Assembly: GCF_004345365.1 (NCBI RefSeq)
Contig: NZ_SLVF01000004.1
Location: forward strand, 124,001 to 188,000
Reading direction: 5' to 3'
Length of the DNA stretch: 64,000 nucleotides
Source of the DNA: Kribbella sp. VKM Ac-2568
GTDB taxonomy: Bacteria; Actinomycetota; Actinomycetes; Propionibacteriales; Kribbellaceae
Part shown: one piece after another, positions 4,888-48,332 of the stretch
Position numbering within the stretch: position 1 is the first letter of the stretch
Layout: every line of letters begins with the position of its first letter
Position numbers and translations under genes: made by a program
The notes under the pieces: generated by a model
The model's database searches: none
Told to the model about the DNA's origin: nothing
Seen by the model: only the letters and a program-made list of their open reading frames with translations

Positions 4888-5718
4888 ATGCGATTGCCGC
4901 ACCCGTTGACGGGGGAGTTGTTCGAGAGCCCGGTGCCGCCGGGGACGGGGTGGCCCGAGGATCCCGCGGTACGGCGTACTCCGGTGGCTCGGAGTACGGC
5001 AGACGTCGTCGAGCTGGCGCAGACCGACGAACTGGCAGAGCTGGACGCGCGGGTGTCCGTGTGCCGGGCGTGCCCGCGGCTGGTGGAGTGGCGTGAAGAG
5101 GTTGCCCTGAGCAAGCGAAAGTCGTTCGCGGACCAGCCGTACTGGGGCCGGCCGATCGCCGGCTGGGGAGATCCCGAGCCGCGGGTGCTGATCGCCGGTC
5201 TCGCGCCGGCCGCGAACGGCGGGAATCGGACCGGCCGGGTGTTCACCGGCGACCGTTCGGGCGACTGGTTGTTCGCCTCGCTCCACCGGGTCGGCCTGGC
5301 CACACAGCCGACGAGCGAGCACGCGGGGGACGGGCTGAGGCTGCTCGGCGCCCGGATGATGGCGGCGGTCCGCTGCGCTCCACCCGCGAACAAGCCGACC
5401 CCGGAGGAACGCGACACCTGCTCCCCATGGTTCCGCCGCGAACTCGAACTGGTGCTCCCGTCCACCCGGGCGATCGTATGCCTGGGCAAATTCGGCTTCG
5501 ACGCCCTCCTGAACGCCCTGCAGTCGGTAGGCGGCGCAGTACCGAAGCCCCGCCCGAAGTTCGGCCACGCGGTCGAGTACCCGATCCCCGGCCCGTACGG
5601 CGAGGTCGTGGTCCTCGGCTGCTTCCACCCCAGCCAGCAAAACACCTTCACCGGCAAACTAACCGAACCAATGCTCGACACCGTAATGACCCGAGCCAAG
5701 GAACTCGCTGGGCTCTGA
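4888..5718 (+). CDS. Uracil-DNA glycosylase, family 5 (UdgB type)
   Basis: A 276-residue DNA repair enzyme that removes uracil and other deaminated bases. C59 and C62 (CRACPRL) are the first two ligands of the iron-sulphur cluster. GLAPAANGGNRTGRVFTGD (from about residue 104) is the family 5 active-site motif, with Ala where family 4 has an acidic residue. HPSQQNTFTGK near residue 245 is the C-terminal catalytic/DNA-binding loop. ATG 4888 is chosen because AGGTGG lies 5 bases upstream; GTG 4879 would put the ribosome site inside the gene. It is followed by a 1.5 kb repeat region without genes. Confidence 0.92.
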   Translation: MRLPHPLTGELFESPVPPGTGWPEDPAVRRTPVARSTADVVELAQTDELAELDARVSVCRACPRLVEWREEVALSKRKSFADQPYWGRPIAGWGDPEPRVLIAGLAPAANGGNRTGRVFTGDRSGDWLFASLHRVGLATQPTSEHAGDGLRLLGARMMAAVRCAPPANKPTPEERDTCSPWFRRELELVLPSTRAIVCLGKFGFDALLNALQSVGGAVPKPRPKFGHAVEYPIPGPYGEVVVLGCFHPSQQNTFTGKLTEPMLDTVMTRAKELAGL

Positions 5719-5803
5719 TGTTCCAGAACAGCCTCTGGTGGTTCCACCGGCTTGGGGCTGAGGTGGTCGCGTCCGGCATGGGCGGAGGTGGTTGCGTCCC
5801 CGG

Positions 5804-5919
5804 GCTGCGTGATGGTGCTGGTCGGGGTGATGTGCGTCAAGAGCGCTTCGCGTCCCTTCGGGATCGGAACAAGTTCCGACTCTGGACCCACACCACCCCG
5901 ACCAGGGAAGGAACGCAGC
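5804..5919 (+). repeat. Cloverleaf element, copy A
   Basis: The core at 5836-5887 folds as a four-way junction with no unpaired joining bases: GTCAAGAG pairs with CTCTGGAC (one mismatch), enclosing hairpins CGC-TTC-GCG, TCCC-TTC-GGGA and TCGGAAC-AA-GTTCCGA. The closing stem extends outward through TGTG/CACA to GTCGGGGTG (5821-5829) pairing perfectly with CACCCCGAC (5894-5902). An outermost GCTGCGT/ACGCAGC pair sits at 5804-5810 and 5913-5919. Whether it works as RNA or as DNA is not known. Confidence 0.8.
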
Positions 5920-5956
5920 TATCCCGGAGCCGCTGAGAGGTGTGGCGACAAGGCCC

Positions 5957-6079
5957 AGGGAGCTCCTTCGCCCAAACGTCGGGGAGTTGGCTTGCCAGAC
6001 GTTCGGGGAGCTGCCTTGCTTAGAAGCTCGGGGAGCTGCATCGCCCCGAAGTTCGGGGTGTTCCTTTGCTCGGGCCGCG
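5957..6079 (+). repeat. 24-25 bp tandem repeats, five units
   Basis: Five imperfect head-to-tail units begin with GGGAGCT or a close variant and end with a TTCG or CGCG-like trinucleotide block (starts near 5958, 5982, 6006, 6031, 6056). A partial sixth starts at 6080. The homologous position at the second locus has three units, so this behaves as a variable-number repeat. No gene is evident. Confidence 0.75.
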
Positions 6080-6101
6080 GGGCTCCCGAAACCGGCACCC
6101 T

Positions 6102-6150
6102 GTGCACCACCTGAGCAGATCCCGGCGAGCCGGACACTCAACCGGTGCAC
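6102..6150 (+). repeat. GTGCACC inverted repeat (hairpin), locus 1
   Basis: GTGCACC at 6102-6108 and GGTGCAC at 6144-6150 are inverted copies, with CTGAG/CTCA as a weaker inner pair. The same hairpin at 42271-42325 is better preserved. Function unknown. Confidence 0.65.
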
Positions 6151-6417
6151 AAAGTGCGGGCTCGGACACCAAGTCGCGACCTCGGACACGACATGACCTG
6201 TCCCTGGGCCCCACAGGGTGTCCGAGGTCCCCCCAACCGCACCGCCGTCCGGCGTCACACCCCCCAGAAGGTGTCCGAGGTCCCCACCACCGCACCCCGT
6301 TCGGGCCCAGCCCGGCGACTGGCCTCCCGATGTCGGGTTGTTCGGCCGCTGGCGCCTTACGAGCCGCCAGCCGGCGAACGACCCGCCAGCGGACCCGCGA
6401 ATAGCCACAGGTGGCCG

Positions 6418-6493
6418 AACAACGGGCCAGCCGGCTAACAACCTGCCAGTGGTCGAACAACCCGCCAGCGGTCGAACAACCTGTCAGCACCAG
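6418..6493 (+). repeat. 19 bp tandem repeats, four units
   Basis: Four head-to-tail units of 19 bp start at 6418, 6437, 6456 and 6475, with the shared frame AACAAC-NNGCCAG-NGGTCG (the last is more diverged). This array is specific to locus 1. The rest of 6494-6748 is C-rich sequence with short direct repeats such as CACCCCGACCCGGCTCA (twice, near 6675 and 6710) and no convincing gene. Confidence 0.75.
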
Positions 6494-6748
6494 CCCCCGA
6501 ATGGCCGCAACCACCACTCCTCGGGGCGAACACCCACGCCCGGGGCCCGCCGGCGTACCGACGGAAGTTGTCGCCGCACACACCACCCCGACGCGCCGCC
6601 CACGCCTGGAACCTCCGCGACCACCCCCAGTACTACCTGTCGGTCCGTACACCCACCCCCGGAAACACCACCCCGACCCGGCTCAAACCTCCGTCGCCCG
6701 GTGCACCCCACCCCGACCCGGCTCAGACCTCTGCGCGGGATCCGCGTA

Positions 6749-6865
6749 GCTGCGTCCTTCCCTGGTCGGGATGGGGTGGGTCAAGAGTCGAAACTTGTTT
6801 CGATCCCGAAGGGACGCCAAAGGCGCTCTTGACGCGCACCAGCACGACTAGCACCATCACGCAGC
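6749..6865 (-). repeat. Cloverleaf element, copy B (inverted)
   Basis: The same structure as copies A and C in opposite orientation. The core at 6780-6833 has GTCAAGAG paired with CTCTTGAC around hairpins TCGAAAC-TT-GTTTCGA, TCCC-GAA-GGGA and CGCC-AAA-GGCG. Relative to A and C, one G-C pair of the long hairpin has become A-T on both sides, a compensatory change. GTCG/CGAC ends (6765 and 6848) and GCTGCGT/ACGCAGC (6749-6755, 6859-6865) close the element. Between it and the ndh promoter (6866-7137) I see no gene. Confidence 0.8.
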
Positions 6866-7137
6866 GGAGACCGCGAACCACCTCCGCCTATGCCAGGGGT
6901 ACAACCGCGCGCTCCACAGGCTGGGAACAGCGCACTCTGTCGGGTGAACTGGCTATCCGCTCGGCGGGAGCACCTGGCCCAGGCATGTGGTTTCTCGTAC
7001 CGGTCTTGCGGTTGTGTATCGGGTGGCGAGACGGTGGTTCCGGGTTGTAGGTGTGGGCGGCGAGAGGCCGCACGATAGGGCATGGAGACCCTCGAACGAG
7101 GGGCCCTCCCGGTAGGTGAGATCACCCGGAAGAGGGA

Positions 7138-41856: not shown

Positions 41857-41886
41857 GGCAATCGTCGGCAATCGTCGGCAATCGTC
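41857..41886 (+). repeat. 10 bp tandem triplicate
   Basis: GGCAATCGTC occurs three times head to tail at 41857, 41867 and 41877. It lies just upstream of the composite repeat locus 2 and is not present at locus 1. Confidence 0.85.
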
Positions 41887-42014
41887 GGCGAATGGCGCGG
41901 GTGGTTGGGTGTGGTTTGGGCTGGGGGGTGTTCGCCGGCTTCGGCTGGGGTGGCATCGGTGGCATATGCGGAGGTGGTCGCGTCTGGCATCAGCGCGGGT
42001 GGTTGCGTCTCCGG

Positions 42015-42132
42015 GCTGCGTGATGGTGCTAGTCGCGCCGGTGTGCGTCAAGAGCGCCTTCGGCGTCCCTTCGGGATCGGAACAAGTTCCGACTCTTGAC
42101 CCACCCCAGCCCGACCAGGGAAGGAACGCAGC
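42015..42132 (+). repeat. Cloverleaf element, copy C
   Basis: The best-preserved copy. The core at 42047-42100 has GTCAAGAG perfectly paired with CTCTTGAC, enclosing CGCC-TTC-GGCG, TCCC-TTC-GGGA and TCGGAAC-AA-GTTCCGA with no unpaired bases between helices. Outer pairing continues imperfectly to GTCG/CGAC (42032 and 42115) and ends in GCTGCGT/ACGCAGC (42015-42021, 42126-42132). Confidence 0.82.
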
Positions 42133-42170
42133 TATCCCGGAGCCGCTGGGGGGTGTGGCGACAAGGGCGA

Positions 42171-42242
42171 GGGAGCTCCTTCGCTCAGGCGTTCGGGGAG
42201 TTGGCTTGCATGGACCTTCGGGGATCTCTTTTGCCCGGAAGG
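42171..42242 (+). repeat. 24-25 bp tandem repeats, three units
   Basis: Units start at 42171, 42196 and 42221 with GGGAGCT, GGGAGTT and GGGATCT. This is the same family as the five units at 5957-6079. Confidence 0.72.
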
Positions 42243-42270
42243 GGGTAGTGGTGCCTCCTGAAAGCAGCAC

Positions 42271-42325
42271 CTTGTGCACCACCTGAGCAGATCCCGGCGC
42301 TCCGGACGCTCAACTGGTGCACAAG
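42271..42325 (+). repeat. CTTGTGCACCA palindrome (hairpin), locus 2
   Basis: CTTGTGCACCA (42271-42281) and TGGTGCACAAG (42315-42325) are perfect 11 bp inverted copies. After two mismatches, TGAGC and GCTCA pair further inside. The loop is about 19 bases and contains CCCGG and TCCGG. Confidence 0.8.
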
Positions 42326-42385
42326 GTGGGGCTTCGGACACCAAGTCGGGGCCTCGGACACGACATGACCTGTCCCAGGTCCCCA

Positions 42386-42660
42386 GAACGCGCCCGAGGT
42401 CCCGACAAACGCACCGCCACCGGCTGTCGCGGCCCCCAGGAGGTGTCCCGAGTCCCGACAACTGCACCGCCGCCGGCTGTCACGGCCCCAGGAGGTGTCC
42501 CGAGTCCCGACAACTGCACCGCCACCGGCTGTCACGGCCCCAGGAGGTGTCCCGAGTCCCGGCAACTGCACCGCCACCGGCTGTCACGGCCCCAGGAGGT
42601 GTCCCCAGTCCCGGCAACTGCACCGCCACCGCTGTTACGGCCCCATTTGGTGTCCGCGGT
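42386..42660 (+). repeat. 52 bp tandem array
   Basis: About five and a half head-to-tail units with starts near 42386, 42438, 42490, 42542, 42594 and 42645. The middle units are nearly identical, with the shared core AGGAGGTGTCCCGAGTCCC, then CAACTGCACCGCC. Divergence increases toward both ends, as expected for unequal crossing-over. Two related units are at locus 1 (from 6215). Confidence 0.85.
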
Positions 42661-42849
42661 CCCCAGTGGCGCACGCCGTCGGGCCCGGGTCGGTGATCGG
42701 CCTCCCGATGGCGGGTTGTTCGGCCGGTGGCGCCTTACGAACTGCCAGGCGGCGAGGAACCCGCTAGCGGGCGGGATGGTTCTTGCGAGTCTGGGAGTGG
42801 AGGGATTCGGGCGGTCATGGAGCTGATTCGAGTTGGCTAGGGTGAGGCC

Positions 42850-48222: not shown

Positions 48223-48332
48223 CTGCTGCCTCCGGTTACTTCGACCGAAGGCGCCCAGGCGGACGACGCCACTCCGTAATACCCGCTCCCCGGTGGTATC
48301 CCACCCTCGCCAGTCGCGTGCCCCCAATCTAC

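Follow-up and report, generated by a model that had tools for sequence, protein, structure and literature searches.

Two repeat loci lie in the window (the whole 64,000-nucleotide stretch of Kribbella sp. VKM Ac-2568 DNA analysed here), both directly downstream of plus-strand genes and both built from the same kinds of module. Read from left to right, locus 1 and locus 2 have in common a set of outer 25-bp units, a cloverleaf, inner ~25-bp units, a GTGCACC palindrome, ~52-bp units, and a CGGGTTGTTCGGCCG block. The two align with 78.5% identity over 545 bp, and this alignment, together with the module map, confirms the claim of the initial annotation that the same modules recur in one order. 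The bounds given there for locus 1 (5751–6376) are cut short, as the locus extends past 6376 to ~6905 through 19-bp units, a spacer, and an inverted second cloverleaf. The latter (6735–6865, minus strand) is an inverted repeat of the first cloverleaf, with 84.6% identity over 175 bp. Locus 1 is a complete ~1.15-kb element (about 5745–6905), the left two thirds of which make up the stretch originally described. Locus 2 is a truncated copy that retains the left arm only and stops at the closing block. The features of both loci are collected in Table 1.

Tandem Repeats Finder (TRF) calls only one array per locus among the inner 25-bp and 52-bp units: neither the 52-bp array of locus 1 nor the inner 25-bp array of locus 2 is called. 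For this reason, the earlier contrast in copy number, with more inner units at locus 1 and more 52-bp units at locus 2, is right in direction, while the exact numbers were counted by eye. The cloverleaf is predicted to be a stable multi-hairpin fold. A tRNA or tRNA-like identity was considered and rejected, as ARAGORN detects no tRNA and Rfam returns no match at gathering thresholds at the two loci. Two other features were seen in the window: a perfect 10-bp tandem repeat, GGCAATCGTC, in 3.3 copies at 41857–41889, just left of locus 2, and a ZMP/ZTP riboswitch (RF01750, 56 bits) at 48246–48327 on the minus strand.

Table 1. Modules of the two loci, in window coordinates.
Feature	Position	Strand	Evidence
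Locus 1, outer ~25-bp tandem units, variable in number, left of the left arm	5745–5803	+	TRF 5747–5799, period 25, 2.1 copies; module map
Locus 1, left arm core: cloverleaf, or long stem with three tip hairpins, L subtype	5804–5934	+	Covariance model R1 match L055:3105-3235 (+), 135 bits; fold; pairing count
Locus 1, inner ~25-bp units	5956–6065	+	TRF, 3.2–3.4 copies of 24–25 bp inside 5958–6058; module map
Locus 1, GTGCACC...GGTGCAC palindrome module	6099–6150	+	Module map; sequence
Locus 1, ~52-bp unit region (GTGTCCGAGG), two units by eye	6151–6310	+	Module map; sequence
Locus 1, CGGGTTGTTCGGCCG block, self-complementary	6326–6380	+	Module map; inverted self-match
Locus 1, 19-bp tandem units CGAACAACCTGCCAGCGGT	6381–6490	+	TRF 6416–6488, 3.8 copies
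Locus 1, spacer ahead of the right arm, common to other copies	6491–6734	+	Module map
Locus 1, right arm core, inverted, R subtype, overlooked by the initial annotation	6735–6865	-	Covariance model R1 match L055:4035-4166 (-), 123 bits; 84.6% inverted repeat
Locus 1, right arm, outer edge, near which homology with other copies stops	6866–6905	-	BLAST of the element against copies
Locus 2, outer ~25-bp units	41935–42014	+	TRF 41960–42010; module map L056
Locus 2, left arm core	42015–42147	+	Covariance model R1 match L056:3116-3248 (+), 127 bits
Locus 2, inner ~25-bp units	42171–42245	+	Module map
Locus 2, GTGCACC palindrome module	42271–42330	+	Module map
Locus 2, 52-bp array	42331–42700	+	TRF 42393–42645, 4.8 copies of 52 bp, 94%
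Locus 2, closing CGGGTTGTTCGGCCG block; element truncated here, without right arm	42701–42757	+	Module map; sole R1 core position in L056 is the left arm

Searching the genome that holds the window (8.88 Mb, 40 contigs) with locus 1 and locus 2 yielded 75 and 71 matches, of which 12 and 9, respectively, have E below 1e-100 (self included), far more than chance would give. These matches were grouped into about 40 loci, all of which were fetched, and a covariance model of the arm, R1, identifies 25 full-length arm cores in them. In the full element, the left core lies between outer and inner 25-bp units and is followed by the GTGCACC palindrome, the 52-bp units, and the closing block; 19-bp units and a spacer then lead to the inverted right core, beyond which outer units appear again. 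Counting pieces of 30 bp or more and leaving out the outer units, 28 of the 30 clusters that contain three or more kinds of module are colinear with this order, both arms being present in eight. The two exceptions are L025, with an extra 52-bp-type piece ahead of the rest, and L019, in which the arm at the left end is scored as R subtype. The proposal of a composite with a maintained module order and an old divergence is thus supported, and the random order of modules that would have spoken for coincidence is not what other genomic copies display. Modules standing alone, the other sign of coincidence named at the outset, do occur, in that no more than two kinds of module are present in 13 further clusters (e.g., L017, L029, L043, L053), while most multi-module clusters are colinear. 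L017, L043, and L053 have palindrome and 52-bp modules without arms, and the inverted GTGTCCGAGG pairs in them may be what is left of another repeat. As for the pair of matching loci first described, the likeness is real, and both turn out to be members of a dispersed, mobile-like family whose unit is ~1.15 kb long and has two inverted arms.

The element carries no evident gene. Of 30 elements with both neighbours called, 29 contain no ORF of 100 aa or more that passes a codon-bias score, the exception being L040a, with an ORF of 167 aa. The position directly downstream of plus-strand genes holds for the two loci in the window; across these 30 elements the setting is convergent in 13, tandem in 12, and divergent in five.

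Arms occur again in inverted pairs in relatives, with starts 0.5–1.1 kb apart. One relative (G036) has five copies of ~1.0–1.1 kb, four of them 90.8–93.1% identical to the fifth, in unrelated flanks, and indels are present inside near-identical copies. At the locus 1 site, the flank matches are separated by 46, 104, and 103 bp in three relatives, against 1.36–1.45 kb in the window, and by 0.5–2.5 kb in five other relatives inspected; none of the eight has an R1 match there. The inserts in two of these five that were read (L099 and L100) look unrelated; that of L099 (G008) is a different, CTCGC-rich repeat-like sequence occupying the same intergenic site. At the locus 2 site, 35–63 bp separate the flanks in two relatives and ~1.06–1.37 kb in six others, so that an insertion at locus 2 is not cleanly shown. 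The lack of an arm at the locus 1 site in all eight relatives and the five ~91–93% identical copies in one relative together establish that the element has dispersed, and it has done so into intergenic gaps. Inspection by eye of arm flanks and of the five G036 copies revealed no target-site duplication; the ends of the element fade into variable 25-bp units with no clear terminal boundary, and no autonomous copy with the same ends was seen among the arm pairs listed.

The fold of the arm is found well beyond the element. At least 30 of 38 genomes of the genus have R1 matches: among the matches listed, at least 52 fall in the genome of the window, at least 33, 23, and 21 in three others, and 1–8 in the remaining matching genomes, counts that often score one palindrome on both strands (the 52 matches correspond to the 25 full-length cores mentioned above). 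In the order, 43 of 245 genomes match, 29 of them in the genus, and in a sample of 394 genomes from the class, 56 match, 52 of them outside the order. Many of the Kribbella matches are solo cores of a B type, lying in a ~340-bp conserved unit. First Pfam passes over the genes flanking solo cores returned AbiV, KAP NTPase, Macro, RelA_SpoT, MFS, glyoxalase, and others; a gene-cassette reading of the B-type solo cores was dropped once a linkage to RepSA appeared.

Several other occurrences were recorded. In a genome from another family of the order (G049; L150–L156, L169), the fold is present as dispersed solo repeats, one pair of which shares 97.7% identity over 175 bp; it may have dispersed there independently and without pairing of arms. 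Two contigs of G011 (L121 and L122) hold an identical ~10-kb stretch with a solo core, suggestive of a recent duplication or an assembly artefact. A scan of a genome collection with exact patterns, which are insensitive, retrieved 15 stretches, all from Kribbella or ‘Streptomyces sp. SID13031’ bar one from Nocardia beijingensis. The SID13031 record (G036) is probably mislabelled; its genome is classed in the Kribbella genus. The N. beijingensis stretch (L125) has a core match and a weak second match ~150 bp away on the same strand (6460–6587 and 6744–6929). The tip pattern has no match among the viral contigs of IMG/VR, and one 345-bp B-type element has none in plasmid and phage collections.

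The fold also occurs singly in AICEs, actinomycete conjugative elements integrated at tRNAs, where it lies opposite in strand to repSA, which encodes the initiator of rolling-circle replication. RepSA (PF20199) is encoded in 22 of the 38 genus genomes, by 32 genes after merging split matches. For at least 16 of the 32 (G000:C5 included), an R1 match lies 4–13 kb away on the 5′ side and on the opposite strand, which is the fair rate of the repSA–core link in the genus; the remaining 16 have no core nearby among the matches listed, and many solo cores adjoin no known repSA. Among the same matches, G026, G018, and G029 have 6–8 arm matches and no repSA, and G015, G007, G022, and G025 have repSA and no arm match. 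Arm matches, therefore, do not track the presence of repSA.

Twenty genus stretches were fetched for an analysis of att sites, 15 of them selected for having both an R1 match and repSA listed, which makes the result conditional on that choice. Sixteen of the 20 contain repSA and both tRNA-derived att repeats, and a core is present in 14 of these 16 (L216 and L219 have none). In all 14, one core lies between the att repeats, 0.2–1.8 kb from the repSA-distal att, and in the excised circle it would come to lie beyond int, downstream of repSA. In L207, a further core is found outside the att repeats, and in L217, which has an integrase and no repSA, the core is outside. The L212 stretch (G033) has two att repeats in tandem, at 620–677 and 5051–5093, each with its own core 0.7–1.5 kb inside, and looks like a stacked AICE and remnant.

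The same arrangement recurs outside the genus. In other families of the order, 20 loci were fetched, eight of them from G049; in the other 12, five cores sit directly beside a RepSA gene on the opposite strand, three lie 1.4–7.4 kb on the 5′ side of RepSA, again on the opposite strand, and for four no link to RepSA is known. Ten further neighbour proteins in the order include no RepSA. A further genome of the order (G037) has the opposite-strand layout among the matches listed, and an AICE remnant in G055, also of the order, has a repSA fragment and a core on the same strand. Outside the order, 20 loci were hand-picked from the R1 list with RepSA unknown at the time of picking; they are mostly the best match per genome, with some higher matches passed over and G518 included twice. 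RepSA matches, obtained with HMMs built here, are found at 12 of the 20. Eleven of the 12 read repSA and then core, on opposite strands, with an integrase beyond the core in 10 of the 11 and FtsK across repSA in nine, and in the twelfth (L267) the core and a RepSA fragment share a strand. FtsK and integrase surround the core without RepSA in L282, and seven of the 20 loci have no RepSA, FtsK, or integrase match. The distance between repSA and core in the integrated form ranges from tens of bp to 13 kb, and the core accompanies RepSA proteins of high score (~500 bits) as well as of lower score (~240–330 bits). RepSA, FtsK, or integrase is found at 0 of 68 dispersed-repeat loci, which are mostly ~6-kb stretches, too short to include a repSA 4–13 kb away. 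Linkage to repSA in a conserved orientation is seen in the single-copy members and not in the dispersed copies.

Each arm is a ~130-bp fold composed of an outer stem, a long inner stem, and three small tip hairpins. In a plain MAFFT alignment of 49 distinct arms, read against a structure hand-written from ViennaRNA folds, 90.3% of cells are paired over 46 pairs, and 15 pairs are changed on both sides. The arms exceed all 500 shuffles in pairing, in two-sided counts, and in covariation score, and sliding the partners drops the pairing to 33–38%; the number of further pair types is not above that of shuffles (331/500). RNAalifold run on the arm alignment alone gives a weaker consensus of 27 pairs. 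G-U accounts for 8 of 1998 paired cells in the arms (0.4%), and the ratio of one-sided to two-sided changes is 7:97. The RNase P RNA of the genus, analysed as a control (29 distinct rows, RNAalifold structure), has 210 G-U in 3596 paired cells (5.8%) and a ratio of 96:82. As selection on DNA pairing predicts such an avoidance of G-U, the alignments indicate that the inner fold of the arm is maintained as DNA. Likewise, in 43 B-type, AICE, and other-family cores, with rows fitted to the model structure, G-U is confined to 6 of 1340 paired cells in the inner helices, and the outer stem has 33 in 195 (39 for the whole fold minus the 6 inner). Given these outer-stem pairs, either the argument for DNA is limited to the inner fold, or the alignment of the B-type/AICE set is wrong at the outer stem.

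In a tree of 92 cores, a branch (82/91) separates the 49 arms from the other cores. Within them, an R subclade of 19 rows (88/81) and an L subclade of 29 rows (81/91) each span several genomes, and one arm, L094, falls outside both. Since each subclade holds several genomes, the L/R arm pair is probably older than the species compared. With few columns, many open forks, and no outgroup, the tree does not show a direction, i.e., arms from AICEs or the reverse.

Two ways of accounting for the repeats without mobile-element replication can be weighed against these data. If the element were a structured RNA (a terminator, an mRNA stabiliser, or an ncRNA) that had spread as a repeat, one would expect the very stable predicted fold, the intergenic and often convergent setting, and the G-U pairs in the outer stem of AICE-type cores. 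We consider this very unlikely, however, as the frequency of G-U in the arms (0.4%) and in the AICE-type inner helices (6/1340) is far from that of RNase P RNA (5.8%), two-sided changes dominate, and Rfam has no match at gathering thresholds. A chance clustering of unrelated local repeats would leave modules in ones and twos, as in the 13 smaller clusters, but it would explain neither the colinearity of 28 of the 30 multi-module clusters nor the old pairing of L and R arms, and on these two grounds it was rejected as practically negligible.

The family is one of dispersed elements, and the arms have a conserved DNA fold in common with the replication modules of AICEs. In our preferred reading, to which we assign a probability of roughly 0.62, both loci are copies of a Kribbella-specific, gene-free, dispersed element of ~1.0–1.2 kb that is non-autonomous and has arms that are ssDNA hairpins resembling AICE replication origins, probably of the single-strand-origin type; we infer both the origin activity and the mobilising enzyme. 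The plan of the element (left arm, arrays and palindromes, spacer, inverted right arm) would then be built around a cis-acting rolling-circle replication element, the arm fold, that works as single-stranded DNA, most likely as a single-strand (minus) origin (sso) and less likely as a double-strand origin (dso). As a non-autonomous derivative, the dispersed element would have exploited an intermediate of strand-displacement replication, with help in trans from a RepSA-type HUH initiator or from host replication proteins. Having two inverted arms, it would present an origin-like hairpin on whichever strand is displaced.

What is described of related systems bears on the type of origin. RepSA binds and nicks the dso of pSAM2, and the RepSA proteins of AICEs are reported to form two subfamilies with different predicted dso binding regions (PMC3218068), to which the two score groups found here would correspond. 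In ICEBs1, sso1 is described as lying immediately downstream of the relaxase gene, with three predicted stem-loops and an orientation-specific activity (PMC4595007). The ICEBs1-sso-like place, shape, and orientation rule of the core, its association with both RepSA score groups, and its varying distance from repSA lead us to favour an sso over a dso.

Were the core a dso nicked by RepSA, the element would be flanked by two inverted nick sites and could move as a RepSA-driven rolling-circle or rolling-hairpin satellite, in the manner of IS91/Helitron or of parvovirus ends. The constant side and orientation relative to repSA agree with this possibility, and so does a TCAAG/CTTGA pair that hardly varies in the tip stem; initiators of the phiX174/pC194 type nick at CTTG^A. 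It is nonetheless an unlikely reading, if one to be kept in mind, as the core, in the integrated form, lies anywhere between tens of bp and 13 kb from repSA, and it pairs with both RepSA score groups even though the two subfamilies are predicted to read different dsos (PMC3218068). Doubtful, too, is a MITE-like element that owes its movement to an ordinary DDE or Y1 (RAYT) transposase recognising its arms, with the AICE copies as hitchhikers. Such an element would explain the inverted arms, the lack of coding sequence, the dispersal, and the near-empty sites, as well as the solo copies in G049 with their 97.7% identical pair over 175 bp. Yet neither crisp ends nor a target duplication are seen, a hitchhiker would not be expected to show one constant AICE layout across several families, and the Y1 transposase (PF01797), present in 1 of 38 genus genomes, is absent from the genome of the window; a RAYT/IS200 mechanism was rejected on this last ground. 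A bolder proposal, which we hold only tentatively and rate as improbable, is that Kribbella chromosomes carry AICE satellites, i.e., gene-free units with two inverted AICE rolling-circle origins that would be copied and inserted by RepSA-type HUH initiators. They would be a bacterial counterpart of Helitron/IS91 or of parvovirus-like hairpin-ended elements.

Under the preferred reading, that of a non-autonomous element with origin-like arms, a puzzling chromosomal repeat would be tied to the machinery by which a major group of conjugative elements replicates. The fold of the arm provides a cis-element of RepSA AICEs that can be searched for across actinomycetes (a match is present in 56 of 394 class genomes) and a concrete candidate for their minus origin. 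If these repeats are indeed satellites of AICE replication, they would add a route for the origin of non-coding mobile DNA in bacteria, and a fold beside an AICE replication gene hints at how parasites of parasites may arise.

Among the papers listed by a literature search, none describes this repeat or this AICE fold, and the closest comparisons are with known classes of repeats and origins. REP/BIME sequences with RAYT transposases (PMC2817692, PMC3733652) are, like the element, palindromic, intergenic, and found in opposite orientations; as described there, REPs are 20–40 bp long and of high copy number, whereas the element has ~130-bp folds in tens of copies, in a genome without a Y1 transposase. 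Bacterial MITEs (PMC2229807) share with it a non-coding sequence, inverted arms, and dispersed intergenic positions. The MITEs treated in that review are units under 200 bp, most of them with terminal repeats and target-site duplications, unlike the ~1.1-kb element with its ~175-bp arms, VNTR edges, and no duplication seen. Viewed as a MITE, the element has the inverted arms and the lack of coding capacity, but not the crisp ends or the target duplication. In eukaryotes, foldback elements and AAV-type hairpin ends have palindromic inverted ends with tandem units in or beside them. The element is alike in its inverted palindromic ends and tandem units, a resemblance only. RepSA-type AICEs (pSAM2 family, PMC3218068) hold the fold in single copy along with repSA, an FtsK-like Tra, a tyrosine integrase, and a tRNA att site; the element in the window is without these genes, and no tRNA att site is seen there. 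Finally, the sso elements described for ICEBs1 (sso1, PMC4595007) and pIJ101 (sso/sti, PMC4170104) resemble the core in being structured, ssDNA-type elements near an initiator gene in a fixed orientation, on an integrative conjugative element in the case of ICEBs1. The core differs from them in occurring also as dispersed, inverted, and paired chromosomal copies, and its likeness to these origins is one of place, shape, and orientation.
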